NCBI RefSeq assembly: GCF_028009165.1
Contig: NC_079246.1
Coordinates: forward strand, 2,914,001-2,978,000
DNA length: 64,000 nt
Direction: 5' to 3'
Source: Akanthomyces muscarius
Taxonomy: Eukaryota > Ascomycota > Sordariomycetes > Hypocreales > Cordycipitaceae
Positions 24,542-57,557 of this stretch are shown piece by piece (the first letter of the stretch is position 1; each line of letters opens with the position of its first letter). The translations under genes were made by a program, and so were the position numbers. The notes under the pieces were generated by a model. It made no database searches. It was not told the DNA's origin and saw only the letters and a list, made by a program, of their open reading frames with translations.

Positions 24542-25682
24542 ATGCCTCCTGACTCCAGCGGTGGCGGCGTGGATCGTCGTCGACAGCAGAATAGAGATGC
24601 GCAGAGAAGAAGACGTGAGTAAAACCAACTTTCGTGACTCGTCTTTAGTACCAACTGAAGGACTTGGCCAGCTTACGACTTTGCGGCGCATGCGTATCAC
24701 AGGAACCGCACTGAGGATGCAGATTGAAGAGCTCCAGGCTAAAAACGAGGAGCTCCAGACGAAGAACTTTGAGCTGCAGACATTCAAAACTACGACGCTC
24801 TGCACCAAAGAGTCTGGTTTTCCGCTGTCCACTGCCAAAAGCCCAATTCCATCAAGCTTCTTTGAAGTCAACTCTGCTCGAGAAGCATTGCCAAGCCGTC
24901 CGATGCCACACCAATTCTCGTGGAATGTCGCGGGCATAGCTTCTGAGAGCTCCCCAGCTTCAGTGTCATCTGCAGCGAACTCAACGTATCACAGTCGGCG
25001 CCAATCGCTCCATGAAAGAATCACGGGTCGCCCGGTTCCAGAGCCGGCGGGACAATTCCGCAACACAGTGCCATCGTCTCTTAGACAGTCCGAGTCCTCT
25101 GACAGAATGCGTCCTCCGGCACTGTCACTCGCAGGGTCCTCTAGCGACGAGTCTACAAGTCCTCTTGACCCAGGAAGCTACCTTGAAGCTGCTTCCGAAA
25201 CCCTCCGCTCCATGGACATTGCTCGGCCGCATTCGCAATCCCCATTGTCCACTTATTTCAAAACCAATGTACTCATGGATGCTTCAATGGCAGAATCATG
25301 GACACCCACAAGAATCCGGCCAGACTCTTTGTCGACCCGCGAGTGCTTGCCCTGGCCCGACTCCTACGGAATGCCGAAGCCTACCGGCCAGGGCCAGCAC
25401 GCCAAGCAGAAGGCCCTGAGGATTGCCGTCGTCAATCGGCAGATTTCGAGTGTAGAGCTGTTGATCAAATATGGCGCGGATCTGAACTTTATTGACGATA
25501 ACGGACGGACGGTGCTGCACGATGCTGCCGAGTCCAATGACGGGGAAATGGTGCAGATGCTGCTTGGACGCGGTGCTAACGCTGATTTAATGGACAGAGC
25601 AGGAATGACAGCTTTGGAAGTTGCCTCATCACTTGGGAATCTAGAAGTGGCAGAGGTCTTGCTAAAATCAAGCTCGGGGTGA
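24542..25682 (+). CDS. bZIP-ankyrin (bANK) transcription factor, ToxE/APS2-like
   Basis: Two exons (24542-24614, 24703-25682; intron 88 bp) give 350 residues. The first exon ends inside a bZIP basic region (RRRQQNRDAQRRRR, residues 12-25). It joins in phase to a leucine zipper with perfect heptads (Leu28, Leu35, Leu42, Leu49). A long Ser/Pro-rich middle follows, then three ankyrin repeats in the last 95 residues (VVNRQISSVELLIKYGADLN, GRTVLHDAAESNDGEMVQML, GMTALEVASSLGNLEVAEVL). bZIP-basic plus ankyrin regulators are known as pathway-specific activators of fungal NRPS clusters: ToxE for HC-toxin and APS2 for apicidin. Here the gene flanks an NRPS cluster, so I infer the same job. It is convergent with the aminotransferase fusion gene. 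Confidence 0.85.
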
Positions 25683-26537
25683 AGCGCATTATCTCCAACA
25701 CGATAGTAGTCATCAGTGATAATTCACAGCATAGCATTCAGCGGCGCAGGCTTGAATTCCTCGGTTCAGTGGTTTGGCAACCTTCAGAGTTTCATAGCTC
25801 CTGCAGAGCACTGCGTCTGCACGACGCGTGAATGACTGTCAATACAGGAACGCTGCAGGGGAGAGGAGTTCATCACGGGCTGCAGCTGCATGGCCATGTC
25901 GTCCACGTAGTCAAGCCGAAATTCCATTTGCTGACTTGTGTAGTCAGCGCAGTAAGCTCCAACGTATCCATTCGGAAAATAGTGTCTTGAAAAGGCTAGT
26001 TCTGGCAGATCTGCCGTTGTTCAGCTTGTCACCACGCATGTGGCTTGCAGCTGGTGTATACAGGGGAAGAACCTCCGCCCCAGCAAAACGCAACAACAAT
26101 GCATGTTCGTCAATAAAATGCCAACGTCATCACGGGCTTTATAAACGTGATGAGCAAAAAGACGCCATTAATGCGTAGGATCGCCGGAAAAGAAGCCAAA
26201 CCTACGGCGCACCACACCATGTGCCGAATCGAAGGGGTTGTGCCGAGAAATGCCCCAAACCCTTCCCTGTCATGGCGCCAAGATGCAGTATAACTTCACA
26301 GAAAACAGGCAAACTCCAGTCGGAGCCGGTCTGGTAACTTCACTGCATTTTGCGACTCTGCGATGTAGTGGCCCACATTCTATCCTGCAGCAATAATATG
26401 CAACTGTGAAAATCTATTGGTGCGCCGGCAGTTTATAACAAACGAATTTATTTTATTACTATCCACAGTTTTCTACAATGAGGCTTTACCCAACACAATA
26501 CTGCTGAGCTGCTTCAAGCGCCCAAGCAGCACCCAGT
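25683..26537. other. intergenic region between convergent genes
   Basis: Holds the 3' flanks of the regulator and the dehydrogenase-aminotransferase gene. No gene is recognised. Confidence 0.5.
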
Positions 26538-28981
26538 TTACAGTCGAGGCTGGGGACCCTGACGTCGGGCACTGCGATCTTCGTAGCGTTCCCCGCTGGA
26601 CAGGGAGCTTGCCGCTGCCAAAAAAGACTTTACATATTTGGCCACAATGGCGCTGTCGGTATCGGTAGACCAGACCGGCAGCTTGATGGCCTGATCATAG
26701 AAGAGCTTGGCCTTGGGAAACTCGGACGTTGGCTGCGCTTCGTACCAGGGCGAGTCGCCGTATCGCGGAATCGCTTCGTGCGGGCTCGTAAAAAGCGGCA
26801 AGTCGTGCAGAAGACCGGTAGACATGGGAATGTCCACTTCCTTCAGGCCGTGCTCGTCTTTCAGAACGCGGACAAACTTGTCACGGCTCAAGCCGTGGGG
26901 CGCCTTGGAAGGCTCAAACTGCATCACAAACGCGTACCAGGCGTGCTTGTCCTGGGACGAATTCTTGACGGTGGGCATCTTGAGAAACGGGATGGCGCTC
27001 AGCTCGTTGGCCATGTAGGATGCGTATGCTTGCCGCGTGGAATCGTGGCGCTCAAATAGGTTCAGCTGCTGGTTGGCTAGTGTGATGGCAAGAGGATGCG
27101 CCCGCAGGTTGAGACCGATTCCCGTCACTGTATTATTTCGTAGTCAGAATTTGTTGCTGTTCTCCGAAGAGTGATGGCCACTTACACCAGAATTTGCGTA
27201 GGGGGTGATCGGCAGGGACTTCTTGCTTTGCTCGCCTGTTAAAGTGGCCATGGAGGATGGCGCGAGAGTAATAGTCAGTAGAATTGGTGCCCATAACACC
27301 CGCCTGTCCGCCCATGACATTCTTCTTTGCCTGCATAGACCAGGCCGCCATATCACCCCATGACCCGACAATCTTGCCGTCCACCATGGCACCATGGGCA
27401 TGCGAGCAGTCTTCAAGAACTTTGATTCCGACCTTGTGCGCATTTTCCACGATTTCCTTCATCCTACAAGGCAGACCCCACATGTGCGTGACGATGATGG
27501 CTTTCGTTTTGGGTGTCGCTCGGGTGAGGATCTCGGCTGGGTCCAGATTTCCATCCTCCAGTGCATCACAGAACACTGGGACTGCTCCGTACTGCAGCAG
27601 TGGCGATGCCGTCGCGAAAAAAGTGTACACCGGGCAGAGAATCTCTTCGCCTGGGCACAGGCCAAGGGCGTCAAACATGTGTAAAATGGCAATAGTGCCC
27701 GAGCTGCAGACAAGTGCGTGCTTGAGATTGTGCATCTGCCGCCACCTGTCTTCAAATACCTGGTAGATATCCGAGCGGTCGTAGATAGACAGTGTCCTGT
27801 GCATCTGGTCCACAACTGCCGTCTCAGACTCTGCGGAGAGCAAGGGCCACACATGATGCGCGCCGTCTAGGGATGCTTCGGACGCCTGATGACGAGACTT
27901 CTGAGACGACGCAACACTTTCGTTGGCGTTGGCGTGGCTGTACGAATTCCTGATGGCTTCCATGACGCTGACTGTATCTCCGAGTCTTGCCAGCGAGGCG
28001 GGAAAGTCCGGCGCGCTGTCAGACACCCAGGCCGAAAACTTTTGGAGCATCGACTTGACTCGCGACGTCTTGCTTGATGAGTCAGTGAAGTTGAATATTT
28101 CGTTTCCAACGCCATCCTTGAGCTTAACGGCCTTGCCTTCTAGAGTAAAGGTACCGTTGGTGCCGGTGATGACCAAAGATTCTTCGTCTCTGTGGGCGAC
28201 ACGCGAAAGATGGACATGTCCGATCGTGCGTTGGGCCGCCTCGCCAAAATTCATGATGATATTGGCAACGTCGTCTCCACTGTAGGACTGTTCGATGCGT
28301 ACTCCTGCTGCACTGCGCGCGATGACAGACGTTGGGCGACCGAAGAGCGACACCATCATGTCTAACATGTGACAGCCGAGGTCCTCCTGTCGCGGGCGGA
28401 GAATCAGCATCTGGTGATTCGCAGGAATTTCATCATTCTTAAGGGTGTGTGTCGCTACTTACAGTTACGCCGACGCCACTACCTGCTCTCCAGGTAGCGT
28501 CCAGGTCCGCGATGCTAGCTGTCAGTGTACCCGTGACAGAGGCAACTTGGCCAACATGATGTAAGAGATCGGCTACAGCAAGGTATCGTGGCTCGAATCG
28601 TTTCTGGAAAGTGACTCCAATTTTGACAGGAAGCTTGCGGAGATGATCATACTCTTCCAGCGACTCTGCCACGGGCTTTTCCTTAAGAATCGCTATGCCA
28701 GCCGCTGCGAGAGCTGTGCAGCAAGGAAGATGGAAGCGATGCGGAACACACACCACAGCAAAGTGTAAATGATGCTTATGCTTCTTGATCAACTCCCCTA
28801 GGTCACTGTAGGCGCTAATGTCGGGGTGCTTGCTTGCGAATCGCTTTCGCGCTGCATCGTCGGCGTCACAGACGGCAACCACATTCCAAGACCGAGGGTG
28901 TGCGAAGAGGGTGGTGAAATGCGTCTTGTACCCACGGTGGCCGACACCGATAATGGCGACGTTGAGCGGTGTTTTTTCCAT
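26538..28981 (-). CDS. fused Gfo/Idh/MocA dehydrogenase - DegT/DnrJ/EryC1 aminotransferase
   Basis: Three exons (28981-28463, 28386-27186, 27127-26538; introns 76 and 58 bp) give 769 residues in one frame. Residues 1 to about 325 are a Gfo/Idh/MocA oxidoreductase: NAD(P)-binding AIIGVGHRGYKTHF, the EKPVAE active-site motif, and GVTEDLGCHMLD across the first intron. After a 25-residue hydrophilic linker, residues about 350-769 are a DegT/DnrJ/EryC1/StrS PLP aminotransferase: SSGTIAILHM, CPVYTFFATASP, VLEDCSHAHGA (Asp499) and WSMQAKKNVMGGQAG with the likely PLP lysine at 528. Together the halves would oxidise a sugar or cyclitol hydroxyl to a ketone and aminate it in place, as separate bacterial enzymes do in kanosamine (NtdC/NtdA) or scyllo-inosamine pathways. 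No ATG or stop near the linker suggests two genes. Substrate unknown. Confidence 0.88.
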
Positions 28982-29787
28982 TGTTATCTCCGTTCTGTGA
29001 TGCGAAAGTTATGGAATGCACTGATAAGGATGCGATTGGTCTCACGTCTTGTTAAACATAAGATGGGAGAGCGGAGGTACCTTTCATAACAGAGTTATGG
29101 GTCTTCTGGGAACTGCTTCTCAGCATATAATTGCTGTAGGCTGAATGAACAAGCCGAGATATGTCATCTGCAATGTTTCTTCTTAGCTTAATCACGATCA
29201 ATGTCTTTCCTCAGCTTGAGCGCGATCTCCGTGGATCACATCCGACTCCTCATTCGACAGAAGACCCTGTAATTACGAAATACTGGTACGTCCACCTCCG
29301 GAGCTACTCGGATGTAACAGTATGCATAGCTGTACTCAGCAATGAGCAGCCCCGTCTGCTGACACGCGCAATATTGACTGCAGCTGCTAAATGTATTATG
29401 CTATCCATTTTTGGAGTGATCCTTCGCTGGTGACTATACACAGATCTCGATCAAAACTCATGCGGGTGTGACAGTGACTACACCCGCTGCACTCAGAACA
29501 TGTGGCGCGAATAGAAAATGCTGACTCACTCTGTTGATTGTGCCAGGGGTACGAATTGGTATGGGTATTTGATCATTTATGCGTAAAGCATAAATCAAGG
29601 GCGAACAACTCGAACTTCATGCAACTCCATGGCTGGTGCCACAAATTTCGAGTGGAATACACGCACTGCCGAGTAGCTACAAGTTGCGAAGCTACCATGT
29701 TTTCGCAGGACACACGTAAATGTGTAGAGACAAATGTGAATTATTGATGCATATGCCGCATTCTGAGGGATACGCCACGCAGCAATT
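28982..29787. other. intergenic region upstream of the fusion gene
   Basis: Lies between the fusion gene start and the NRPS stop, both on the minus strand, so it should carry the fusion gene promoter and the NRPS 3' end. No gene is recognised. Confidence 0.5.
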
Positions 29788-32700
29788 CTACTCTTGGGGC
29801 CGCTTCTTCAAACGCAGCAGGAGATGGACTTGCGACTTCATATCTGCATGCTGTAGGACGTCTTCCATGCTTACTGGGAGCCCATGACGCTGAAAGTGCT
29901 TTACAAGCGCGTACGAGGCAATGAGATTGCCCCAAACGTCGTAAAATGGAACATTCTTTGCCCATGCATTCTCAAGAGCTGAGTGAGCACAGCCCAGTTC
30001 AGCGACCCACGCTGTCTGCACCAGGCTGCGTATCTCGTCGTGTTGCAGCTCTAAGTCTCCAGTCTCGTTGTTGCTTGCTGCATCTTCTTTATGTGACGAC
30101 TCGAGTGGCACGTCTATAGGTATCTTTGGAAGTCCCAGTTCGCCTGCTTCTGCCAGCGACACCTTTGCGTTGACATCTTCGTGGAAGAGTGTGGCATGTC
30201 CGACCATTCGGTCAAGTATTCTCTGTGCTGTCGCTTTCGAGAGCATAGATTTTGAAAAGTCCAGAGCAATGAAAGTTTCCTTTTCACCCAACGGCATACT
30301 GAATATTGTAGTATCGTGTCGATCGGCGGGAGGTCGAATCTCGTTAGCTGCGTAGGTATTGCCACCACCGATATGGAAGAATTCCTCGTCTTCTCCCAGA
30401 TTCTCGTACTCAACGAGCGTGCCCAGTCGTTCCCAAGGCCGCCATTCGGTGCATTCCTCAACAATACGTTTTAGTCGAAAATTCTCGAAACGAATTGCCT
30501 GAAAGTACTGTGTCTGAACTGCTTTCAGGAGCTCCAGCCGAGTCATATCAGTTTCAAGGCGAACGCGCACTGGGATATTATCGATGCATGCTCCGGCGAC
30601 ATGCTCTACATCCGGGAACGGGGCATTGCGGCCGCCTATCACAGACCCAAAAACCACATCGCGGCTGCCTGCCATCTCTGCTAATACAAGCGACCAGGCG
30701 GTTTTGATTGCGGTACCGATTGTGATTTCTGCGTGTGGTTGAAGAAACTTTGTCTCGATGGTTCTCGTAACCTCTCCATCCAACACATGCTCATATGGAA
30801 TGCCGTGGTGTTGAAAAACATTTGTCATGGAAGAACCAGAGAGCAGTTTGCGCCAGAAAGCTTTCGCCGCAGGAGCGTCATGATTGGCAGCGAAACTAAT
30901 GTAATTGAAATAGGACGGCGTGGGTGCAAGTGACGAATCGTTAAAAAGCAGCCCAAACTCTTTCCACCAACGGCCAATTGTGACTCCATCGTACTGCAGG
31001 TGTGAAGCTCGGAATATAAGACGCTTCACTCTGTTTTCCGAACCATAGAGCAGCCAAAACTTTATCAGGGCTTTAGTAATATCCAGAGACTGCTTAGACT
31101 CTGTTTGCATTAGACTTGTAGTTGCAATGGCAGGATTATCGACGCCGAAGCAGTGAACAATTTCAAAGGGCAATTGCTTCAATGAGGCTTGGTAAACACG
31201 TCGGCGATAGACAAAATAAACTGTCCGTAGTATGGCATGATATGAAACAAGAGCCCTGATAGCCTTTTGGAGCTGCTCGCTGTCCACAGCAGAGGCAAAG
31301 TCGAAAGTGTGGTAGTTTGTTCCGCCGCGAGTCTGAAGAGATGACCATGCCAGGTTTTCGATTTGGTAGTCCGTCGCCAAAGCTAAGTCTTCAATCTGCG
31401 ATGCAGGTACACCTAGCATCGGAGCTGCGACTCTTTCTAGAAAGTCAGTGGCAAAAACACTAGACAACGACGATAGTGGCTTGTAGTCTGGTTTTTTTGC
31501 TGCCTGTGGCTGGGTTTGATGTTTTTGTGAAATCACCGAGACGAGCTGGTCGAGACCGGGGTTATTGAGTATCTGCGCAACCGTCACCTCCAGTCCACGT
31601 CTGCGGGCGGCAATAGCCAGCTTCATAGCAAGAATCGAGTTTCCACCCAGCCAAAAGAAGTTGGACTCCGGAGTAACATCGTGCGCAGTCAACCCCAAAA
31701 TTTCGGCCCATAGATCAACCATGGCATTTCTGTCTCGACTCTTCACGTTCGAGGATTCTTCGCTTTTGGGTGCCGCAGTCAGCAGATAACTTTGGAGTTG
31801 CGATTCCGAGAGAGCTTCGGCCATTGCCCTGAGGAGCTTCCGGTCTGCCTTGCCTGACGCAACAGCTGGGATGCAGCTGACAGGCAGAAAGGCAGACGGG
31901 ATAAAATGTTCCGGTAGATATTTTGATAGCGCCTTCACAATTTCGACATGCCTAGCCTTGGTTATCTCATCAATTGGCTTCAATGGCGATGTGGCAGAGA
32001 TGTTTCTTGATGTGTCGCTTATAAATGCCACAAGATGCTCATGCGTCGGGCGATAGCGTGGGCAAATTACCTCCACGACCGAAACGGTTTCCCCTGAAGC
32101 ATCACTGCGATTGATGCGGTACTCAATTTCCCCCAATTCAACCCGGTTTCCCCTGATTTTGACCTGGGTGTCGCGCCGTCCACAGAATTGCAGCTCTCCA
32201 TTGTCTCTGTAGCGCACGAGATCGCCGGTATAGTAGGCGCGCTGTTTTTGAGTGCTAGCAGGTAACCAAGGAAGCGTGTTCACAAATGACGCCGCTGTGC
32301 GAGCCTCATCATTCAGATACCCTCGGGCGACTGTTGGTCCCTGAAGAACTAATTCGCCAATGGCACCGATGGGCGCAAGAAGTGCGCGGTTGTCAGTCCG
32401 AACGATCCAAGCTATTGTCTCTGGTATAGCCCTGCCCAGATTGGTCGGATCCCTGATACCATTTGACCACGAATACACTGTCGTCGACCCAGAAGTCTCC
32501 GACGGGCCGTAGATGTTGCGTAAATCCACCGCATCAGCCCATTCCGTAATGATATCGGTTGTCGCCGTTTCGCCCCAGGTACAGAGTGTCTTGACGCTAG
32601 GCACATCTTCTGGTTTGATGATTCGTGCAAGTGTTGGAGTGATACCCACCCATGTCACCTTCATATCCGTAATACAACTGGCGAGATCGTTGAAGCGGTT

Positions 32701-34080
32701 CTCTTCGGATGGTATACAGATGCATGCGCCGGCTACTAGCGATGAGTATACTTCGTCGAGGATGGCGTCAAAGGTGTAGCTGGCAAATTGTAGAACGCGA
32801 GACTCCTTGGTAATGCCAAAAACTTCATGGCAACGAACTGCGAGATATGACGCATGCTCAATGACGATGCCCTTCGGCTGGCCGGTACTCCCAGAAGTAA
32901 ATTGGATATGTGCCGCATCAGTAGATCGTACTGAAGTCGAAGTAAAGAGAGTCGAATGTTCTGTGTCTGGGCCTTTTGGCACGCTGGGGAAGTTCTTTTC
33001 GTCCACAACCAACTTGACGAAATTTCTGTCCTCCACGTCCAGTTTGCGCTCCAAATCAAATCCAACAAGGAGGACTGCGGCTCCGGTAAACTCGAGAATG
33101 GCTTGCATTCTTGCGTGCGGATAGTCTTTGCTCAGAGCCACCGCTGCCGCGCCAGATTTCAGAATTGCCAGCATTGACACCACTGCCCACTTGGACTTGC
33201 TGAAGAAGAATGCCACATTTGCACCTGTTTCAACACCTTGCTCGTGTAGCTTGGACGCGACCCGGGAGGAAATTGAGTCGAGCTCGCGGTATGTAAAGTC
33301 GCCATCCCAACTGCATACAGCGGGTCTGTCGGGATGCTTCAGCGCTGTTTGATGAATCACTTGATGAATACAGGTGTCGTAGTTCGCGAATACCTTGTCG
33401 TTCCATAGTTGTATTTGCTCGAAATCGGCGGTTGGCAGTATATCTAGGTCGCAGAGGCGATCGTCGGTGCGAGCCGCCAGTTTCTCAATGCATCTAGCGA
33501 ATAGCAATCCGACCCGTCGTGCCCATTGTTCGCTGACAATGTCTGCCGGATAGAAAATCGAAATAGTTCTTTCGGTCGCATCGACTTGCGCCTCGAGTAA
33601 TTCTCTCTTTCGACGTGCAATGGTGCCACAGGTTGCAGATGGCTCCGTTCGTATGATAGACAACGCACTATCGAATAATTCAGTCGGTTGTTGCACGTCG
33701 CCTTTGACGGTATCCGGGTCGCTGTTTGACAAGGAAGCTTCTTCCAAAGACGAGAGTATGTTCGCAGCGCTCCTTTTCGGATCCAATCGGCATCGCAACA
33801 GCTTTTCAGAGTTCTTCATGTAGACGGCAGTGCAAACATCCTCTGTGCCGGCGTATGCTCCCACAACCATGCACCAGGCGAGCTTGAGTAAGGCAGCTGG
33901 AGAGGTGTCCTCTTCTTCAAAGGCGGCTTGCAGGGCCCTTTCATCCACTGCATTTTCAAGGACAATGATTTTCAGAGAACCATTGTTCGGAAGGTTTTCT
34001 TTATGCGTTTCGGCCCTAAGAAGGCGGCATGCGTCCCAACCCTGCCACTGCGCCGTTTGATCTGCGTGATGGGAGTCCAT
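29788..34080 (-). CDS. nonribosomal peptide synthetase, A-T-C plus serine-less carrier domain
   Basis: One intron-free frame of 1430 residues. Domains in order: partial condensation-like region (1-220, no HHxxxDG); adenylation domain (230-760) with IQFTSGSTGQPKG, YTGDLVRYRDNGELQFCGR and GKADRK; carrier domain with LGGNSI (Ser815); condensation domain (880-1310), whose motif reads SHLQYDG (His1027, Asp1031; the first His is Ser). At the C-terminus is a carrier-like region in which VWGNLIAS replaces GGDS, so the phosphopantetheine serine is absent (Leu1386). By hand alignment to GrsA-PheA the A-domain specificity residues are D438 A439 D442 G479 C500 W502 I523 G531 S532 K744; Asp438 predicts an alpha-amino acid, but I know no match for the set. 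One amino acid is probably loaded and condensed with an amine. No thioesterase or reductase domain is present. Confidence 0.93.
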   Translation of the reverse strand: MDSHHADQTAQWQGWDACRLLRAETHKENLPNNGSLKIIVLENAVDERALQAAFEEEDTSPAALLKLAWCMVVGAYAGTEDVCTAVYMKNSEKLLRCRLDPKRSAANILSSLEEASLSNSDPDTVKGDVQQPTELFDSALSIIRTEPSATCGTIARRKRELLEAQVDATERTISIFYPADIVSEQWARRVGLLFARCIEKLAARTDDRLCDLDILPTADFEQIQLWNDKVFANYDTCIHQVIHQTALKHPDRPAVCSWDGDFTYRELDSISSRVASKLHEQGVETGANVAFFFSKSKWAVVSMLAILKSGAAAVALSKDYPHARMQAILEFTGAAVLLVGFDLERKLDVEDRNFVKLVVDEKNFPSVPKGPDTEHSTLFTSTSVRSTDAAHIQFTSGSTGQPKGIVIEHASYLAVRCHEVFGITKESRVLQFASYTFDAILDEVYSSLVAGACICIPSEENRFNDLASCITDMKVTWVGITPTLARIIKPEDVPSVKTLCTWGETATTDIITEWADAVDLRNIYGPSETSGSTTVYSWSNGIRDPTNLGRAIPETIAWIVRTDNRALLAPIGAIGELVLQGPTVARGYLNDEARTAASFVNTLPWLPASTQKQRAYYTGDLVRYRDNGELQFCGRRDTQVKIRGNRVELGEIEYRINRSDASGETVSVVEVICPRYRPTHEHLVAFISDTSRNISATSPLKPIDEITKARHVEIVKALSKYLPEHFIPSAFLPVSCIPAVASGKADRKLLRAMAEALSESQLQSYLLTAAPKSEESSNVKSRDRNAMVDLWAEILGLTAHDVTPESNFFWLGGNSILAMKLAIAARRRGLEVTVAQILNNPGLDQLVSVISQKHQTQPQAAKKPDYKPLSSLSSVFATDFLERVAAPMLGVPASQIEDLALATDYQIENLAWSSLQTRGGTNYHTFDFASAVDSEQLQKAIRALVSYHAILRTVYFVYRRRVYQASLKQLPFEIVHCFGVDNPAIATTSLMQTESKQSLDITKALIKFWLLYGSENRVKRLIFRASHLQYDGVTIGRWWKEFGLLFNDSSLAPTPSYFNYISFAANHDAPAAKAFWRKLLSGSSMTNVFQHHGIPYEHVLDGEVTRTIETKFLQPHAEITIGTAIKTAWSLVLAEMAGSRDVVFGSVIGGRNAPFPDVEHVAGACIDNIPVRVRLETDMTRLELLKAVQTQYFQAIRFENFRLKRIVEECTEWRPWERLGTLVEYENLGEDEEFFHIGGGNTYAANEIRPPADRHDTTIFSMPLGEKETFIALDFSKSMLSKATAQRILDRMVGHATLFHEDVNAKVSLAEAGELGLPKIPIDVPLESSHKEDAASNNETGDLELQHDEIRSLVQTAWVAELGCAHSALENAWAKNVPFYDVWGNLIASYALVKHFQRHGLPVSMEDVLQHADMKSQVHLLLRLKKRPQE

Positions 34081-34445
34081 TTCGCGCGTTTGCGTGTTGG
34101 GAACGAGAGCAGGTGCTTAAAGCCGAGAGTATCTGCCCGGGAGCTAGTATATCTTGCGAAAAGGTAAGCAGCACAAAACAGGCTCACAAAATGAATGCAT
34201 TTCCGTACTGTAGAATGCCGCTGCATCCATGATGACGAGAATGCACTTCGGTGTATGGTGCCAACTCAGCAGTGACGGTTTCTGGGGACAACGTTGTCAC
34301 CGATCCCCCTCGCTACACCAGCTGCAACACCTGCACACTCAGCACATATGCGTGTTACAATGCATGTATACTCATCCTGGCACAAAACCATGGTGCGCCG
34401 TAGATATGATTTAATTTTCCTTCTAGTCTAACTCCAACCTGTATT
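34081..34445. other. NRPS upstream region
   Basis: 365 bp between the nucleotidase stop and the NRPS start (same strand), so it should hold the NRPS promoter. Only a weak match to the ToxE tox-box is seen (34151-34160, see rejected items). Confidence 0.5.
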
Positions 34446-36335
34446 CTATAGATTCGCCTCATGCATAATTTTAATCCGGCTTTCTACCACGGGACTAACG
34501 ATGGGGAGGGCGTCCTCGGTGTGGTACCCAGAAACAATAGCTGCCCTTGCCCTCTGTATCCCTTCTGCATGGTGATCTGCCACACCAGACTCATTCGCAT
34601 CATTTTTGCTCAATTTGAATATTTCGAGCAGCATATTTGTATCTGTGATGGCGCCTTCCGTATCAACCAACGTCTCGCAATCTCGGAAGCAAGTGTATCC
34701 ATCAAACCCGGAACCGATAAAATCTACCATAGTCACCGTGTACATGCGATCCATTTCCAAAGGCTGAGATTTACCATTTGATGGATGGAACAAAATCTCG
34801 CTGACTCGAGAAGTTTCTGGTCGCCTCCAATCTAGCCTCATGCTGAGTCCGCAGAGCTGCAGAAATCTCCCATCAGTGTGCGCATCTGAGACGGAATTCT
34901 CGAGCGCCTGCGCAAGAACTCTACCACCGACTCGCTTTACAACAAAGGCGTTGTCAAAAGGGCTAATCTCAATTACGTCGCGGATGCAAAGAGGCGCGCC
35001 ATTGCCGCACTCTATAATTCGATCGCAACGTACAGCGCCACTATTGACGAAGCCAATGTCTGTGTCGTAGAATGCTCTGACGGCATCAGCCAACATGTTC
35101 CCTAGGTTTGTTTCTTGGCTCCGGATAATATGTGATCGTCCGTCGAGTGGCGATGCAGTGCGGAACAAAGGCTGTGTGACGACCTCTTCAATCTTGCCGT
35201 GAGCTGCTTGCAAAATGTCCAATGTTGCCTGCGAGACAGGAATTTGGCTATAGTTGGAAATTTTCTTTAAGTCTGCAATTTGTCGCACTATATCAAGATC
35301 AGTAAAACGCCCAGAGATCACGAAGTGACCAGACTTGAACGTACAGGACATGCCGAGTATCGTTGACTCGCCTTTCTCCTTACTTCCAAGTCGCAAACGT
35401 ATAATGGAAAGCCCTCTCCAGTCGGTACCGCTCTTGATGATTCGGAAGTCACCCTCGCACTCGGTAACTGCAGCTCCGTCGAGATCGAATCCTGATTGCA
35501 GAACCTCGGGATTTGGATCGGTGTCAGACACATCTCGGCGAACAACGTAGTGATCATGACCGCCCAGTATCAAATCTATTTTCTCTGCGCCAGACATCGT
35601 ATTGTTGAGAGTTTCGAGATCTTCCACCAAGCGCATATGAGTTACCGCTACTACCAGGTCGCACTTTTCAACCAGCCGTAGATGTGTGACTACTCGTTTC
35701 GCAACCGTCGCGGGGTCCAGTATTGTGCATTCCGGCAAATGCTGGCAATTGGAAGGCCAGTCGCTTTATTGTATGTTAGCAAAGATCATAGAAGCCAATA
35801 ATATTCCTGATCAGTGAATCTTCTTACCTGCCAGCTAGACCGAAGAATCCCAGCTTGTATTCGGCTACTTCTTTGATCACATATTCCTGGGCACCAGCAA
35901 GAAGGCGGCCGTGTCCCTCGGCGTCGTGTCCTGGTGCAACTGCGTTGGCAAGGGTCCAAGGGAAGCGGATCTGGCTGGTAAGCTCGACAAGTCGATCCTG
36001 GCCAAAATCAAAATCGTGATTTCCATAACAGCCCACGTCGATATCAAGACTGTCTAACAGCGGCGCCATGTGGTCGCCGCGCAAAACGGCGGCTTCTAAC
36101 GAGGGCGAGAAAGCATCTCCGCTGAAGACGCGCAAAATGGGGCCGCTCGGTTTATCATCGCCAGTAGCACAACTCGGGTCTGCGAGGACGGAAGCAAATT
36201 TGGCGACTAGCTCGGAGTCCGATATGTGATACTGCAAACAGTTGTGGCCCTTCTGTCAGCGCAGGTTCTCCGTCGGTCGCGTTCGTGAAGAGCGCCACTC
36301 ACCACATCGTTGAAGTGCAGTATGGTGAGGTCCAT
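34446..36335 (-). CDS. cytosolic 5'-nucleotidase / metallophosphoesterase (UshA-like)
   Basis: Three exons (36335-36303, 36231-35828, 35763-34446) give 584 residues. The 33-bp first exon reads MDLTILHFNDV and continues YHI across the intron, giving the family start HFNDVYH. The N-terminal metallophosphoesterase domain has GNHDFDFG, VAVTHMRLVED and LGGHDHY, the dinuclear metal ligands. The C-terminal 5'-nucleotidase domain has ETNLGNMLAD, NSGAVRCD, ISPFDNAF and GSGFDGY, the substrate-binding loop. There is no signal peptide, unlike secreted UshA-type enzymes, so it should act in the cytosol. It removes phosphate from nucleotides or other phosphomonoesters. Placed between the NRPS and the ABC exporter, it could dephosphorylate a pathway intermediate or detoxify the product. 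Confidence 0.87.
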
Positions 36336-37356
36336 CGCTGGGTGAGCGGCCCGGTCGAGCGAGACTCTTCAAGGGTGCTTTAAACCCCAAGCCTAGTTAC
36401 GACCTCGGTTCTTGTCGGTCGCAGGTTTTTCTACCTGCCGTGATGATGCTGCACAGCCAGGCACCCACAGCGGGCGCCACAGAGCCGTTATGGCGCCGCC
36501 ACCCCGCTGCGGAAAGTCGACGAGCAGCAGCCACGGATTGCAATTCAGCATAAGACAATCACAGCGGCCAGTAGCGGGAAATCAGGCTACGGCACAGTCT
36601 TGCACATCAAATTTCCACGACGATGCTAACTAATTGCCGTTCAGATCAAGCTCGCTGCGATGAGCAAAATACAAGATACGCTGCAGCTACTGTACGCTGC
36701 CCGTGAGAATCCGAGACCCAGGCATCGAGGATCAGACTGTCTTGAACATCATCGATTTGCACATTTATTGTGCAAAAACTAGCATGTGGGACTACCGTGT
36801 CTCACTTCTCATCTCCGAATTTCTGCCCATGACACCATTTGCGTCCAGATCCTGCAGCGATGCCCGTTTGCGTGCATTCGTGCCCGTGTCTGCGATGACT
36901 GTGCAGTGTCAGCAACATGCATCTATCACAAAACAGCACAAGCAATGTACTGCAGGTCTAAAGCCTCAAGGACTTTGTGTAGCTAGTACCCTGGCATGCT
37001 GACTACACAGCCAACTCATCCGATGCAGCTCGTCTCTGGAGCTGCGACCTACACACCATTTCAGCCGCAATTCCTGTTCAGCATTGCTTCGGGCGGCGCA
37101 AAGGGCCAACTGGTCAACTATTCATGTAACACAAGCCCAATCCTTCGTGCGGGGTAAACTAATCCCTGCCATGTTCCTTTTATTGAATTTTGAGGTGGCG
37201 CAATAACCCGCACTTTGTCTGCCTCCGTCACAGTCCCGCCACCGATTCCAGTCCCGCGCATCCTCCGTATGAGGCTGTCCTATCAACCCAGTCGCAACTC
37301 AATCCCAATTGTTCACAGAGTTGTCTTCAGGTTGATTTCAATGCGACTAGAGAAAT
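36336..37356. promoter_or_regulatory. divergent promoter region, nucleotidase / ABC exporter
   Basis: 1.02 kb between the divergent starts of the nucleotidase (minus) and the ABC transporter (plus). No coding sequence is recognised. The arrangement suggests shared control, but I identify no specific operator. Confidence 0.45.
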
Positions 37357-40300
37357 ATGAGCAATAACAAGAATCAGGATCCGTCCGCGTCACCTCAGGA
37401 CGGGCGAAATGTTGCTGGTGGCCCTGCTCAGCAGGGCCTCTCGATAGCGGCCGCGGCCACGCCAGCGTTTGAAGCCCATGTTGCCGTCGAGCACGCTACC
37501 TTGGAGCGGCAACTCCATTTCGACGAAAACAATGTTTCATTCCTTGGAATATACCGCTTCGCCGACACCATTGACATGATAATTGCCGCCATTAGCACTC
37601 TGTGCGCAGTGATTGCAGGCTCGTTGATCCCAGTGACCCCGGTACATTCTCCCTATGCAAGGCTTGCCTGGTGCTAGAACGATCAATTGCTGACAAAAAC
37701 GTCGACGCATTCTAGATCATCAGTTCACGAATCATAGAAGCATTTTCGAAAGCCGAGGGGCATGATCAGGATGCTGAAAGTCTCTTGAATCGCTACACGG
37801 TGTACTACGCCTACATTGTCCTGGTCGCATTGGTGACCTGGTTCATCGCAACAGCCGGCTTCAACTATACCGGTGCGCGGATCGCACGCCGGATCAAGAT
37901 TCGCTTCTTTGCCGCCACTTTGAAACAAAACATGGCAGTTTTCGATGACAATGGCATCGGCGGCATTCTCTCGCAGCTGACAGACGATGCCAACGCCGTC
38001 CAGAATGCCATTTCGTCGAAGCTGTCTCAGACAATTGCTGCACTGGGAACGCTAATCGCCACTGTGGTCGTTTGCTTTGCTGTCGATGCCATTTTGATGC
38101 TGGAGCTGATTTGGTCGCTGTTTGTCGGCTACATAGTGCTATATCTGGGTGGTGTCCTCACTGTCCGTTATAGCACCCGCAGCATAGAGGCTTCTTCCTC
38201 TGGGTCGGAAGTGGTCGAGGAAGCCTTTAGTTCCATCAAAACCACCACCTCTCTTGGAATTCAGAAATACGTGCACAACACATACATGGGCTTCTTGAAG
38301 CAATCGGCCAAATACGGGTTTTTGATCACCTCCCTTAACGGAATCTTGATTGCAATTTGCGTCGCCACTGGCTATCTCAATGTGGCATTGGCCTTTTGGC
38401 AAGGCGCGCGTCGCATTACAGAAGGGAGCTCCAGTTTCACTGCTGTAGTGACCATTGCCATGGTTTCCAAGGCCGCCGCTTTTTGTGTTCTTGGAGTTGG
38501 TGCAAATGTGGAAGCATTTTCTTTGGCGGTGGCCGGTGCACGTCGTCTCAACCGCATGATTCTGCGTATATCGCCCATTGATTCTTCCTCTAGTGAAGGT
38601 CTCGCTCCAGGTCGATTCAATCCCACTATAGAGCTACGTAACATACGACACATCTACCCTTGTCGGCCAGCCACTACGGTGCTAGACGACGTGAGCATCC
38701 AGTTTCCGGCAGGAAAGACAACAGCCTTGGTGGGGCACTCTGGCTCCGGCAAGAGTTCTATTGCGCATCTTCTTCTACGGTTTTACGACCCAATTGCCGG
38801 CGAGATTTTGCTAGATGGTAGGAAGTTGGCTGACTACCAGATTAGTTGGTTGAGGCAGCAAATGGCCGTGGTTAAGCAAGAACCTTTCATGTTCAACAAG
38901 TCAGTATTTGAAAATATCGAGCTGGGGTTTACCGGTGACCGTGGAACTCGAATGTCACCCCCTGAAAGGCGCAAAGCCGTCGAGCAAGCCGCAAAAGTTG
39001 CGCAGGCCAGTGACTTCATCAGCAAGCTGCCCCAAGGCTTCAATACCATTGTTGGGACTCGTGGGTCCAGGCTGTCGGGCGGCCAGCTCCAACGCATTGC
39101 CATTGCCCGAGCTCTAGTAAATAATCCGAAAATTCTAATATTGGATGAAGCAACGTCAGCCCTCGATAGTGAGACGGAAGCGCGACTGCTCGCTACCATG
39201 GCGGAGAGTGAAAGGCAGCAAACCAATATTGTCATTGCTCATCGTCTTTCCACGATTCGAAGTGCCGACAACATTGTCGTTATTGACGCCGGAAAAGTCG
39301 TGGAAAGCGGCAAGCACGATGACCTCATGGCGGCAGAGTCTCACTACTACCACCTTGTCAAAGCACAAGACCAGGATCATGATAAACAAGATCCCTTTGA
39401 CGATGCTTATGAGTATCGACCTTCAACGGATAGCATAGCTGCGCACGACAGCGAACCAGCCTTGGAAGACCTCGCCGCTCAAACAGAACGTTCTATACAG
39501 TCTACTTCAATCTGGTCAATGATTTTGTTCATGATTAAGCTCAGCAAACGCGAGAGCCATTGGATGATCATCGGTCTTATTGGCAGCATCATCGCAGGAG
39601 GAGAAGAGGCCGTCTCCGCTGTGCTCTTTGGAAAAGTCATTACTGCTATTGCCCGTCCTCTTGATGAGTCACACAGCATTCGCTCTGACGCTGGCTTTTA
39701 TGCGCGGATGTTTCTCCTACTAGCCGTCGTCATGCTTCTCAGCAGTGTGGCCGAAGGAGTCGCCTTTGCGATTGTAGCAGAACACCTCTCCAATCGCGTT
39801 CGTGACTTGACACTGGACCATTACCTCAAGATGGATGTGTCATTCTTTGACAGGGACGAAAACTCTTTTGGCGCCATTTCTGGGTTCTTGTCTGGATCGG
39901 CGAGCGACATTACCGGCCTCAGCGGAAGCGCCCTAGGCATCATTTTGATCTGCTTCTCTACTGTGGTTTCTGGTATCGTGATTTCATTCGCTCTGGGATG
40001 GAAGTTGGCTCTCGTCTGCTTTGCAGTTATGCCGCTAATGGTTGGCGGCGGATACTTTGGCGTTTTGCTTGTGGCCGACTTTGAGGAGATGAACGAGGAG
40101 TTTGCCCACCAAGCCGCCGAGTTTGCTGGGGAGACTCTGGCAGGCATCCAGACCATTGCCGCCCTCACCCGCGAGGATCAAAGCCTGCAGACATTCCAAC
40201 AAAAGATCAGACAAAATGAGTCAAAAGCTCTCGTCTCCAATGTTAAGGTGTCTTTTCTCTACGCACTCACGCAGACTGCATACTATGCTAGTATGGCAAT

Positions 40301-41342
40301 TAGCTTCTGGTACGGCGGGAGGCTTATCTTGCGCGGCGAGTATACCCTATTTCAGGCCATCACAATTCAGTCGGCCATGCTTCTGAGCGCGTTCTCAGCG
40401 GGTCTTGTTTTCGCGTGGACGCCAAACATTGGCAAGGCCAAACAAGCAGCCGCATCACTGCAGCGTTTGTTGGCGCAAAAGTCGGAGATTGATCCTTCGT
40501 CAGCCGAGGGTGCAGACCCCGGTGCCGTTGAGGGCCAGCTTCAATTTAACTCCGTCAGTTTTGCTTATCCCTCGCGGCCTGACAATCTGGCGCTCGATAA
40601 TGTGAGCTTCACCATTCCGGCCGGCGCGAACATTGCTTTTGTTGGCACGACCGGGTCTGGTAAAAGCACTATTGTCTCTCTGATTGAGCGTTTCTATGAT
40701 CCGCTAAAAGGCGCTATTTTTCTAGATTCAAAGCCCATCACTTCACTTCAACTGTCGAAATACCGCAGCTGTATCGGGCTTGTTAGCCAAGTGCCGAATC
40801 TGTATCGCGGAACTATCCGAGACAACCTAACACTCGGCATGGATAAAGAGGCCACGGTAACGGAAGACGAGGTCAAGCAGGCCTGCGAGGAAGCTTTCAT
40901 CTACGATTTTATTAGCAGTCTACCGTAAGTACCGATATACAGGTTATTCCAGCCCGTCGCATGCCAATCACTCACCGGTCACAGGGACGGCTTCAATACA
41001 GAGGTGGGCAGCAAGGGCGTTCAGCTCAGCATCGGGCAAAAGCAGCGAGTTGTACTGGCCCGAACATTGCTGCGTAAGCCCAAGATTCTTCTCTTGGACG
41101 AAGCGACATCTGCGCTGGACTCACAGTCCGAGGCCATCATTCAGGAAGCCCTCGAGAAGATGAAGAGAGCCAGGACCACCGTCACCATTGCACATCGGCT
41201 CAGCACGATTGTAAAGGCGGACAAAATTTATGTATTGAGCGACGGCCGCATTGTCGAGTCTGGCACCCATGCGCAGCTCATGGCTCGCAAGGCCGATTAT
41301 TACAGACTCTACACCGCGAGCAAGAGTGGACAGACTCTGTAG
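37357..41342 (+). CDS. ABC exporter, ABCB/MDR type (full-size)
   Basis: Three exons (37357-37641, 37716-40924, 40985-41342) give 1283 residues in the order TMD1-NBD1-TMD2-NBD2. NBD1 has Walker A GHSGSGKSS, signature LSGGQLQR and Walker B ILILDEATSALD, then the H-loop IVIAHRLST. NBD2 has Walker A GTTGSGKST, signature LSIGQKQR (Ile where Gly is usual) and Walker B ILLLDEATSALD, with the H-loop TIAHRLST. The 54-residue N-terminal extension is hydrophilic, normal for fungal ABCB proteins. The first intron removes a stop; the last restores PDGFNTEVGSKG. It should pump a hydrophobic or amphiphilic compound out through the plasma membrane. At the end of the cluster it is the likely exporter or self-protection pump for the product. 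Confidence 0.93.
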
Positions 41343-41501
41343 CCCACGTTACAGCCAGGCGATAGTTGCATGCGGAACAGAAGCTCAAAAATGATATGTA
41401 AGGTTATTTATCAGTTCAGAATATAGACATATGAAAGTATAGAATATATATACACAAAGATTCGTCTCAGACGATACAAAGCGCTCAGAATTCGGCAGCG
41501 C

Positions 41502-42065
41502 TTAGAATCCAGCAGCACTGCAGACCTGCTTGGCGAGGGGAATACGCTTCGCGTAAAGGTTACCTGCCTGGGCCCTCTGGACGGCCTGGTCCAGGGCAGA
41601 GATCTCCATCGTCTGCCAGCCCTTGATGCCCTTCATGACGGACAGGAACTGGCGAGTGCTGCCGGCAGCAGACATGTCGGTGGCAATGTTGGGGTAGAAT
41701 TGAGCGCGCTGCTGGAACATGCCTTTAACTTTGTTAGTACTTCCACTGTCTTGGACGGCGTGGGGCAGATATCACATACCGACACTGTCCTGGTCGCCGC
41801 CGACCTTGTCGTGGGGGTAGTTCATCGAAGCAGGGACTCTGGGGTTGGCGTAGATCTGCAGCTCAGACTCCTGGAGAGCAGTGCTAATGACAGCCAGGCA
41901 AGCCTGTCTGTTCAGGCCCTCGGCGCGGACCTCGCCAATGGCAGCCTTGGCGTTGCGGCTCTGGACATTATTCAGGCCCGGGTAGCCGCGAGCCTCGACG
42001 GGCACAGTCGCGGCGAAAGCGCCGGTGGACATGAGGCCCGCGACGAAAGCAAGTGTGAGCTGCAT
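41502..42065 (-). CDS. secreted lysozyme/lytic transglycosylase-like protein of bacterial type
   Basis: Two exons (42065-41780, 41722-41502; 57-bp intron) give 168 residues. A signal peptide (MQLTLAFVAGLMSTGAFAA) is followed by a single domain with NAKAAIGEVRAEGLNRQACL, STALQESELQ (candidate catalytic Glu66) and DSVGMFQQR. This is the order seen in actinobacterial secreted or phage-associated cell-wall proteins (ALQESxL..DSLGLFQQR..GW). The C-terminal helix block (DQAVQRAQAGNLYAKRIP) also fits. In fungi such a protein could act on bacterial peptidoglycan. I infer the activity from motifs; the fold assignment and acquisition from bacteria need a search. It has its own TATA box 108 bp upstream. 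Confidence 0.72.
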
Positions 42066-42172
42066 GTTGAAGTAGATTTGGGAATGTAAGAGTGCTTGGA
42101 GAGGATATCAGTGTAGAGAAAGCTTGTTTGCTACGGAATGGTTTCTTGGATATAGATGCGAGACGACATCAG

Positions 42173-54959: not shown

Positions 54960-56284
54960 GTCTTCTTTAATGATATATATAATACTAACCTGTATAAAAT
55001 CTTTAATTTATTACCTATAAGCCTTTTTATATAAACTAAAATAGTTAATATCTAAAGGCTAAAATATATAAGAAAAATATATAACTGTCAGGGACCTCGA
55101 AGCTATATAGTGGATGCTAGGGATACTCGGCTACGGTCTGGTATTGCTTGATCTTTTTGATCTCTGTGGCTGTCAGGGCACTCGCAGGGCACGCTGGTTG
55201 GTAGGAGGTTATAGGCAACCAGAGGGATCACGTGCGAAGAAGCTACTATATAGTTGCGGGCTGCCGACGAGAGAGTAGCGAGGAGACAGCGATAATTCCA
55301 CCATCATCCTAAAACCTAAGGATCATCTAGTGACTGAAGCTCTTCGCCGACAGCACCTCACAGTGGCCGAGTGGTTACCTAGCGCCCCGGTTCCTCACAA
55401 TAACTAAGTATAGTTATAGAAAGAAATTATCTTTATATTTTATTAAAAAGCTTAAATAAATTTAAATAATTAAAAGTTAAAGAATAAAGAAGGTATATTA
55501 CTTATTTATTAACTACATTATATAACTAACGTGGTTAATAAACAAGTAGCGCAGATAAGCGAGTAGCGCACCTCTACTAACCCCTTAACCTTTAATTATA
55601 AATAATTTAACTATAATATTAATAAACATCTAAAACTAATTAGAATCCTCTTCCTTACTAATTTCTATATTTATAGTATAAGTGTATATATTATATCTAG
55701 TCTAACTATATACACTATATTACTAACTATATATTTTAACCCTTACTTTATAATAACTATAAGCCTATATTTTATCCTTTACTTAACTATTTATATCTAT
55801 TTACTCTTTTAAATCTCTTATATCTTATATAGAAAGAGATCTTTTAATTTATAGCCTTATTTTTTTAGTCTATTAGTACTTACTAATTAGCTTATTTATA
55901 GCTTTAAGGCCTTATACCTAAGTATATAAAAATATAACCTTATATATAATAGCTATTATATCTTTCTTAAAACTATTAAGTATATTAAGACTTTTAGTTA
56001 GAGAGCTATTTAAGTAATTAGTAATTTATTTTTTTAAAATTAAAGACTATAAAACTACTTTATTTACTATACTTAGTGTCTAAGAGACTTAAAACCTAGC
56101 TAATCTTAAATATAAGTTTAAAAGACTTAGTATTATAAACTTAAGTTTTAAGGTAAAAATAACCTTTTTAAGATTAAAAGGGGTAATTCTAGCGCCTTAA
56201 AAACTACCTTAGATATTTTTTTTTATAATAAACTTATTAAAAGTATAAAAAAATATAAAAAAGAAGTCTTTTTTAGTAATATAT
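54960..56284. other. AT-rich, gene-free block (left part)
   Basis: Sequence dominated by TA-rich words, without open frames and typical of DNA degraded by RIP. A GC-normal solo LTR (55086-55399) is embedded in it. Nothing coding is seen in the rest. Confidence 0.7.
55081..55404. mobile_element. solo LTR, 314 bp, with ATAAC target duplication
   Basis: The element runs 55086-55399, starts TGTCAGGGACC, ends GGTTCCTCACA (TG..CA ends) and is flanked on both sides by ATAAC (55081-55085 and 55400-55404), a perfect 5-bp target-site duplication. No internal domain is present, so it is a solo LTR left after recombination. A second, split copy occurs at 56285-56316 and 63508-63598. The body is GC-normal and barely mutated, unlike its surroundings. 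Confidence 0.75.
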
Positions 56285-56316
56285 TATTAGGGACTTCGAA
56301 GCTATATAGTGGATAT
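56285..56316. repeat. left fragment of second 314-bp-type LTR copy
   Basis: 32 bp matching the start of the solo LTR (TGTCAGGGACCTCG there, TATTAGGGACTTCG here), ending at the gypsy insertion point with the mutated target duplication GATAT. Confidence 0.7.
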
Positions 56317-56544
56317 TGTGAAGGATTCGGGCTTTGCCCGCTCCCTAGGGACTTAATACGAGAGCTTAGTAAGCTCTTATATTAGGCGTAGATCGTACTT
56401 ACTTTATAGTGTAGATTATAAGCTAGATTAGGGGAGAGGGAGAGGGAGAGAGCCTCCCCCTTCCTTCTTCTTTCTTCTCTCCTTAAAAGAATTAATAACT
56501 ATTATAACACTTACTTATAGTAGCTATAAGGCTAGTTTATAATA
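56317..56544 (+). repeat. 5' LTR of the gypsy element (228 bp)
   Basis: Starts TGTGAAGG and ends ATAATA (CA mutated to TA). It contains the low-complexity stretch GGGGAGAGGGAGAGGGAGAG followed by a CT-rich run. It aligns without gaps to the 3' LTR; the differences I noted are mostly G/A and C/T transitions. Confidence 0.85.
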
Positions 56545-57515
56545 ATTAATTCTCTTTATAAAATAGAGAATTACGACCCTTATAGTACTATACTAAAGAC
56601 ATTCTTAGGTATATAAGAATAGTATAACGCCCTTATAGAATAGAATAGGAGATAAGCTGAAAAGATACGGCTCCTCTATAAGTAAATACTACTCCTATAG
56701 AATTAGGCTATACCGCCCTTAGGAGTAACTACTACGCCTTCTTCTACTAAATTGACTAATACTAGTAATAATCTAATAACTTATAAAAGGAAACCGCTCT
56801 TATAAGGGGATAAATTTAATAGTAACTAAAAAGCCTTTATAGGCTAGAAATAGGCGATTACCTATAAGCTTAAGATTAACACGGAATTTATTAGGCCCTT
56901 AAAAGTATAATTTATATATATTTAGTTAAATCTAAGCTTAATAGCTTAACTTAAAGTTACTATATACTTTAAGGTAGGTAGGTATAATAGGGAGTCTAAC
57001 TTTTACGCTTTCCTAAGCTACCTAGAGATAGTATTTAGCGACCCTTACTAATAGGAACTTATAATAATAAAGCTAAACTACCTTAAGTAAGGAGAGAGAG
57101 AACCCTTCTTATAGTTTTATATATAATTTAAATAAGAGCTAGCCCTAGCTAGTAGCTTACTTTAAAATAATAAGGTTAAACTTACTAAACTCTACCTAGT
57201 ACTCTTAGATATAATATAGGGGCTTATAGTTAGCTAATAAGTATTATAGATAAGCTATAAGTCTATAATATAGGAGCTATAAAAGCTCTCTATTAACTTA
57301 GAATTATATTAGATTAAAGAAAACTACTAATATAATATTTAATAAAGGAACCTACCTCTAAGAAAGGACTTAGAAGGGGACACTTTAATAATAGGTATAT
57401 AAGGCCTATACGTCCTACCCTCCTCTAACCTAAGGCCCTAGGGATAAAACTTTTTATATTAATAAGCAACCTAGGTAACTAAAAAGGTTCTCTAAGAATA
57501 AAAGGATATAGGCGC

Positions 57516-57557
57516 CTGCCTTTATTACAGAAAAGACAGGCACTATATTAGTAAATA
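57516..57557 (+). pseudogene. gag zinc-knuckle relic
   Basis: Reads CLYYRKDRHYISKY in the frame of the RT. The spacing of a CCHC knuckle (C-X2-C-X4-H-X4-C) is kept, but the second and last cysteines are tyrosines, as expected from TGC/TGT to TAC/TAT changes. Confidence 0.65.

Follow-up and report, generated by a model that had tools for sequence, protein, structure and literature searches.

A candidate gene cluster for aminoacyl-aminonucleoside biosynthesis in the fungus Akanthomyces muscarius

What would a fungus make with an oxidoreductase fused to an aminotransferase, a nonribosomal peptide synthetase (NRPS), a nucleotidase, an exporter and a regulator, all encoded side by side? The question is raised by 64,000 nucleotides of Akanthomyces muscarius, referred to here as the window (contig NC_079246.1, positions 2,914,001 to 2,978,000 of the forward strand, in RefSeq assembly GCF_028009165.1 of 12 contigs and 36.2 Mb). 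A first look at the letters alone (the sequence-only reading) had proposed that five genes at 24542-41342 of the window make an aminoacylated aminosugar or aminocyclitol. We consider it probable that the locus is a fungal biosynthetic cluster for an aminoacyl-aminonucleoside, a puromycin-like compound in which an amino acid is linked to an aminated nucleoside such as adenosine. The pathway logic proposed earlier (oxidise, aminate, dephosphorylate, acylate, export) appears right, but the scaffold is probably a nucleoside rather than a sugar or a cyclitol.

The five genes and their core enzymes

Gene models, built by hand from splice sites and orthologues, and Pfam domains place all five genes where they had been claimed, with reading frames intact. 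The first intron of the fusion gene was settled through the orthologues. The genes are:

24542-25682, plus strand: bANK transcription factor (bZIP basic region and C-terminal ankyrin repeats), 350 aa; exons 24542-24614 and 24703-25682
28981-26538, minus strand: fusion of a Gfo/Idh/MocA oxidoreductase and a DegT/DnrJ/EryC1 aminotransferase, 769 aa; exons 28981-28463, 28386-27186 and 27127-26538
34080-29788, minus strand: NRPS, a single open reading frame (ORF) of 1430 aa; Pfam AMP-binding, PP-binding and Condensation
36335-34446, minus strand: 5'-nucleotidase/metallophosphoesterase (PF02872), 584 aa; exons 36335-36303, 36231-35828 and 35763-34446
37357-41342, plus strand: ABCB-type full transporter, 1283 aa; exons 37357-37641, 37716-40924 and 40985-41342

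Scored on a 767-aa version of the fusion model, the Gfo half matches PF01408 (62.6 bits) together with its C-terminal domains, and the aminotransferase half matches PF01041 (192.4 bits). Across 28 aligned fusions, E103 K104 P105, D177 and H181 of the oxidoreductase and the catalytic lysine K530 of the aminotransferase are invariant (P0001 numbering). Judged by these families and residues, the fusion would provide both the NAD-dependent 3'-dehydrogenase of a puromycin-type pathway, where Pur10 is likewise of the Gfo/Idh/MocA type, and its DegT-family 3'-aminotransferase. Its expected reactions, oxidation of an alcohol to a ketone followed by amination of the ketone, are those proposed earlier.

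The phosphatase is predicted to be a 5'-nucleotidase (PF02872, 111.6 bits). Its best matches by sequence in the PDB are 5'-nucleotidases, bacterial 2z1a first and then CD73, and no signal peptide is evident by eye. The removal of a phosphate, as suggested earlier, is supported. The enzyme could fill the phosphatase role of a puromycin-type pathway, although its family differs from that of Pur3, which is of the inositol-monophosphatase type. As a separate observation, the nucleotidase is only 79% identical to LLEC1_00420 of Akanthomyces lecanii, whereas the NRPS shares 99% identity with the protein of A. lecanii RCEF 1005; the two strains in public databases that bear the name A. lecanii may therefore be different species.

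What is the substrate? The fusion might make a 3-amino sugar of the kanosamine type from a sugar phosphate or a nucleoside diphosphate (NDP)-sugar, which the UshA-like nucleotidase would cleave and the NRPS would acylate on the amine. Its enzyme chemistry is the same as that of RifL/RifK, NtdC/NtdA and WbpB/WbpE, and general sugar-aminotransferase models of NCBIfam match it, all below cut-off; nucleotidase homologues bearing the name UDP-sugar hydrolase would also fit. The Bacillus NtdCAB set, with which the sequence-only reading drew a parallel, combines an oxidoreductase, an aminotransferase and a phosphatase as the window does. NtdA, however, is a distant relative, the 36th of 76 PDB sequences matched by the aminotransferase half (65 bits, vs. 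142 for the best). The best match, 8gyh, has no naming paper that we could find in the open-access literature of PubMed Central (PMC). The NtdB phosphatase is of the HAD type, unlike the PF02872 enzyme here, and to our knowledge NtdCAB has no NRPS, which the window has. Given the rank of NtdA and the phosphatase family, we reject an assignment to NtdCAB, and the kanosamine parallel is not supported.

An aminocyclitol is the other possibility: the Gfo half would be an inositol dehydrogenase, the aminotransferase half would yield the aminocyclitol and the NRPS would acylate it. In NCBIfam, the Gfo half indeed matches inositol 2-dehydrogenase best (72 against a cut-off of 355), and the better PDB matches of the other half include deoxy-scyllo-inosose aminotransferases (105 bits). 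Both matches fall far below family level, however, and the nucleotidase would be left with no obvious role.

Bacterial relatives and their operons

The gene company kept by bacterial relatives of the fusion bears on both proposals. Bacterial and archaeal genomes were scanned with the alignment of the 28 fusions, and the best 80 of 361 loci were picked by similarity only; the aminotransferase ORF was obtained from 79 of them (all except L041). A Gfo-type ORF is adjacent in 60 of the 79. By BLAST, the ORF immediately downstream of the aminotransferase is Nudix-like in 60 of the 79, and 68 have such an ORF within 2.5 kb, while the measure for immediate neighbours applied to other genes of the loci gives 5 of 394. 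A strict Nudix-box pattern occurs at most 400 bases downstream in 45 of the 79, with 14 such boxes elsewhere. Pfam confirms the Nudix domain in nine representatives, a Symploca fusion protein included. The nearest NCBIfam models for four of the Nudix proteins are nucleoside triphosphate pyrophosphatases or general Nudix models, all far below cut-off. The arrangement recurs in Patescibacteria, archaea, Bradyrhizobium and Thiotrichaceae.

The other neighbours also point to nucleotides. Thymidylate-kinase-like genes are found at most 1.8 kb away in 10 of the 79 loci, and CYTH-like genes in 6 (the Pfam CYTH match is marginal in L009 and missing in L016). In Symploca, an inositol-monophosphatase-Nudix fusion gene stands beside the aminotransferase (L013:6569-7879). 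Pyrimidine-nucleoside-phosphorylase-like genes are present in three loci lacking a Nudix gene (L072, L076 and L125). In L072, moreover, an NRPS protein with adenylation (A) and thiolation (T) domains directly follows the aminotransferase, and an ORF with a phosphoribosyltransferase domain is present; L072 is one of two loci of the 79 with a BLAST match to the fungal NRPS, the other being L049, where the match is about 4 kb away. Among 42 flanking ORFs picked from 21 loci (8 of them without any Pfam match), none has a domain of an NDP-sugar enzyme or a sugar-nucleotide glycosyltransferase; the three Glycos_transf_3 matches among flanking ORFs are of the nucleoside phosphorylase type.

As a second sample, 392 Streptomyces genomes were searched with the fungal aminotransferase half; 27 of them contained 28 matches in total, one of which, L090, is the same locus as L076. 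The 12 best relatives all have a Gfo match alongside, in L095 as a 142-codon fragment only, and 10 of them have a Nudix gene. Among the 16 weaker relatives, a Nudix box is nearby in one and a Gfo match in five (Fisher p 5e-5 for the Nudix difference; the two groups were divided at a score gap picked once the results were known). In a quick tree with SH-aLRT support only, the fungal fusions fall in one supported clade with bacterial and metagenome fusions and with enzymes of Nudix operons; several long branches meet there, which leaves the exact sister groups unsure. A scan of Gammaproteobacteria for operons like adg, a Photorhabdus set discussed below, matched 5 of 369 genomes, the best being G397 itself and the rest reaching at most 150 bits.

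Because of this context (Nudix, thymidylate-kinase-like and nucleoside-phosphorylase-like genes), we prefer a nucleotide-based product. A kanosamine-type product appears unlikely, the nearest bacterial kin being mostly in Gfo-DegT-Nudix operons with thymidylate-kinase-like, CYTH-like, inositol-monophosphatase or nucleoside-phosphorylase-like neighbours. The aminocyclitol, which finds no echo in these nucleotide-related operons either, is very unlikely. The product class of the sequence-only reading is therefore not borne out.

Several of the bacterial loci are of interest in themselves. The Gfo-DegT-Nudix sets and their kin (L007, L014, L019, L020, L021, L029, L031, L037, L040, L062 and the Nocardia loci) occur across Actinomycetota, Patescibacteria, archaea and Proteobacteria, and a thymidylate-kinase-like gene accompanies ten of them. 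We know of no product assigned to them; they may produce free amino-nucleotides, perhaps with a role as antimicrobials or as antiviral chain terminators. The Nudix-less actinobacterial group (L072:8854-15638, L076:8911-13773, L125:5965-11415) combines Gfo-DegT with the pyrimidine-nucleoside-phosphorylase-like gene and, in L072 and L076, a class-III aminotransferase; it looks like an unassigned family of nucleoside antibiotics. In Actinomadura (L073, L081, L082, L086), the Gfo-DegT-Nudix operon adjoins a gene for a helix-turn-helix-peptide deformylase protein (by Pfam in L073, by BLAST in the others). Clostridial aminotransferase ORFs (L022, L027, L032-L036, L043, L048, L064) are about 600-720 codons long, with a long N-terminal stretch that has no BLAST match to the Gfo half.

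Conserved neighbourhood and the acylation step

Are the genes conserved together in fungi? Linkage was judged by locus numbers and by contigs of equal size; on a large contig, equal size indicates linkage, not adjacency. The matches are the best 120 proteins per search, so that absences among them weigh little. Genes of the fusion, the NRPS and the nucleotidase lie close together in Hirsutella minnesotensis (NRPS HIM_02891, fusion 02894, nucleotidase 02895) and Ophiocordyceps australis (nucleotidase CDD81_1760, fusion 1764, NRPS 1765). Two of the three are found together in Claussenomyces (NRPS 005594 adjoining fusion 005595), Arachnomyces (fusion 005111, nucleotidase 005113), Trichophyton rubrum (NRPS H112_00033, nucleotidase 00035) and Talaromyces atroroseus, where UA08_00560, a single model (P0164) joining a bZIP-ankyrin sequence to the orthologous NRPS, adjoins nucleotidase 00561. 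Fusion and NRPS are on equal-sized contigs in Epichloe (86 kb), in Neoarthrinium (1.0 Mb) and in a metagenome (13.4 kb; P0014 and P0131). Cordyceps militaris has homologues of all three proteins, 71-80% identical. Entries P0001-P0030 include 25 fusions with fungal names, a few of them partial (e.g., P0026, P0027 and P0030). The nucleotidase is near the fusion or on an equal-sized contig in 12 of the 25, and none is among the matches listed for 9. The sequence-only reading had allowed that the genes might prove not to be conserved together; for these three, the fungal evidence supports one conserved gene neighbourhood, beyond chance.

Fusion and nucleotidase share contigs also in the basidiomycetes Leucogyrophana, Botryobasidium and Hygrophoropsis (a 25.8-kb contig in the last), where the best 120 matches include no close NRPS. 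Because of this sharing, the pair is probably the core of the pathway. It could then be asked whether the pair simply makes a free aminonucleoside, with the NRPS acting elsewhere and the end product not being an aminoacyl-aminonucleoside. The pairs of Leucogyrophana, Botryobasidium and Annulohypoxylon, all without a close NRPS among the best 120, are in line with this. Against it, the NRPS adjoins the fusion or shares its contig in Claussenomyces, Ophiocordyceps, Hirsutella, Epichloe, Neoarthrinium and the metagenome contig, and the NRPS itself appears built for acylation.

The NRPS begins with a partial N-terminus resembling a condensation (C) domain, recognized by eye, followed by A, T (LGGNSI) and C (SHLQYDG) domains and a T-like C-terminus without the serine (WGNL). 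The presence of an NRPS was read correctly before; its domain order is now corrected to A-T-C plus a second, serine-less T-like domain, after the partial C-like start. The C-domain motif SH(L/A)QYDG is kept in 21 of 22 aligned rows (as SHLQYDG in 19), as would be expected of an active C domain that uses a soluble amine acceptor. The domains and the motif support an NRPS that would acylate an amine, and we regard a free aminonucleoside from the pair, with the NRPS acting elsewhere, as unlikely. In the last T-like domain of the NRPS and its homologues, the serine position is Leu or Ile in all 22 rows, inside WGN in 21; this conserved domain is perhaps a docking or structural part.

At least three signature classes exist in the A domains of the NRPS family. 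DADGCW(I/V)G(S/T)K occurs in six rows, including the window, A. lecanii, C. militaris and C. javanica; DAVGCWIV(E/V) in eight, including Claussenomyces, Ophiocordyceps, Epichloe, Neoarthrinium and Talaromyces; and DA(T/S)G(A/C)W(L/C/N)VGK in five, from dermatophytes, Pseudogymnoascus and a metagenome. P0140 (DAIGCWFVGK), P0145 and P0142 stand apart. An Asp at position 239 marks the six rows of the window group and is absent from the other 16. An acidic residue there suits a basic amino acid, a rule that is weak in fungi.

The remaining two genes would serve control and export. The regulator is a bANK protein of the ToxE/APS2 type, as had been said: it has clear ankyrin repeats (Ank_2, 58.6 bits, 9.7e-16), a weak bZIP_1 match below cut-off (20.1 bits against 27.6; 6.7e-4), a basic region that reads DRRRQQNRDAQRRRR, and no other domain. 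The TOX-box consensus has no exact match in the five promoter stretches; the target motif of this regulator may differ. The main exon of the pump encodes two ABC_membrane and two ABC_tran stretches (Pfam), and we propose that the pump is an exporter or serves self-protection. Both genes are tied to the pathway by position, to which the joined Talaromyces gene model adds in the case of the regulator.

Outside the cluster, a small minus-strand gene at 41500-42070, just beyond the pump, has a start resembling a signal peptide by eye; its product is likely secreted and probably not part of the cluster. About 14 kb away, the end of the window (55000-64000) holds an AT-rich block, with 28-34% GC from 56001 on. 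It has a strong signature of repeat-induced point mutation (TA/AT 1.8-1.9; (CA+TG)/(AC+GT) 0.13-0.26).

The puromycin likeness and the probable product

The puromycin pathway (pur, Streptomyces alboniger, with related A201A and cystocin clusters) uses the dehydrogenase Pur10, the aminotransferase Pur4, the Nudix hydrolase Pur7 and the monophosphatase Pur3, followed by aminoacylation of the 3'-amine (PMC11641026). The window would match these steps with a different set of proteins: the dehydrogenase and aminotransferase are one polypeptide, a 5'-nucleotidase replaces the Nudix enzyme and the monophosphatase, the NRPS takes the place of Pur6, the ligase, and Pfam shows no methyltransferase or acetyltransferase among the five. 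The Photorhabdus set adgA-E has the same nucleotide-core enzyme roles and an exporter, and its adgB-E genes, homologues of pur10, pur4, pur7 and pur3, yield 3'-amino-3'-deoxyguanosine in Escherichia coli (PMC9239236). The adg genes, however, are separate, include Nudix and phosphatase genes and lack an acylation step. The operons in which the fusion's bacterial relatives mostly lie are gene sets of this pur/adg kind, a likeness in operon content. The cns1-4 cluster for cordycepin and pentostatin in Cordyceps militaris shares with our locus a purine nucleoside, the fungal family and a transport step, but it consists of four genes with other chemistry, and the relevant excerpt does not mention an NRPS (PMC12648386).

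Several points weigh against an aminoacyl-aminonucleoside. No Nudix domain (PF00293) turned up in the five proteins or in those flanking ORFs of the window that were scanned (a part of all ORFs), and the fungal cluster yielded no Pur3-type gene. Bacterial relatives of the fusion are only 35-49% identical in the aminotransferase, many of the loci are close relatives (Nocardia, Glycomyces, Lentzea), and 19 of the 79 have no Nudix-like ORF directly downstream, 11 of them none within 2.5 kb. Nudix enzymes also cleave sugar nucleotides, and certain nucleotidase homologues carry the name UDP-sugar hydrolase or diphosphatase. In 4 of the 25 fungus-named fusions, the nucleotidase is on another contig or in another strain (Escovopsis, Periconia, Microsporum, Neoarthrinium). 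The A-domain prediction is weak in fungi, and the metabolite link described below is at the genus level only, from mass-spectral profiling. Because the Nudix gene is absent and the likeness is one of operon content, we liken the cluster to the puromycin pathway without filing it as a member.

The pathway we favor, to an aminoacyl-aminonucleoside, would proceed as follows. The substrate of the fusion would be a purine nucleotide, with ATP, ADP and AMP the likeliest candidates; the enzyme would turn its 3'-hydroxyl into a ketone by oxidation and transaminate this 3'-ketone to the 3'-amino-3'-deoxynucleotide. The 5'-nucleotidase would strip the phosphate(s) to give the nucleoside, thus doing the work of the bacterial Nudix enzyme and monophosphatase. 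The NRPS would adenylate an amino acid and load it onto its single functional carrier, and the C domain would join this amino acid to the free 3'-amine, which would act as a soluble acceptor. Export of the product would fall to the ABCB pump, and the bANK protein would turn the genes on. In Cordycipitaceae, the product is likely an aminoacyl-3'-amino-3'-deoxyadenosine, perhaps the lysyl or homocitrullyl compound.

The first descriptions of lysyl and homocitrullyl aminoadenosine, from C. militaris, date from the 1960s, and the peptidyl nucleoside chryscandin comes from Chrysosporium pannorum, now Pseudogymnoascus. Homologues of the NRPS and the nucleotidase occur in Pseudogymnoascus. The excerpt of PMC6924690 only cites chryscandin. 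Both 3'-amino-3'-deoxyadenosine and 3'-homocitrullyl-amino-3'-deoxyadenosine appear in a published metabolomic profile of Cordyceps nidus (PMC5479552). Knowledge of the former compound goes back to the early 1960s; a review from 2025, which cites a 1963 paper for it, counts it among nucleoside antibiotics without an identified gene cluster (PMC12648386, section 2.4). No amino-deoxyadenosine pathway is found in the excerpted part of PMC6741141. Among the papers listed by searches of the open-access PMC literature, which leaves subscription papers uncovered, we found no report of a fungal cluster of this kind, nor an assignment of the gene set to a known product.

We see an even chance that the locus encodes the fungal route, so far missing, to 3'-amino-3'-deoxyadenosine and its aminoacyl derivatives, with an NRPS doing the puromycin-type acylation, and that it belongs to a widespread, unrecognized class of translation blockers or RNA chain terminators. 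The gene family reaches dermatophytes and, without a listed NRPS, basidiomycetes. If the proposal is true, a fungus would have put together a puromycin-type pathway in which an NRPS stands in for the Pur6 ligase, and the five genes might account for an unusual nucleoside that has been reported in a Cordyceps fungus. With five candidate genes named, the origin of 3'-amino-3'-deoxyadenosine becomes directly testable. Dermatophytes and insect fungi would then gain an unsuspected metabolite directed at translation or transcription.

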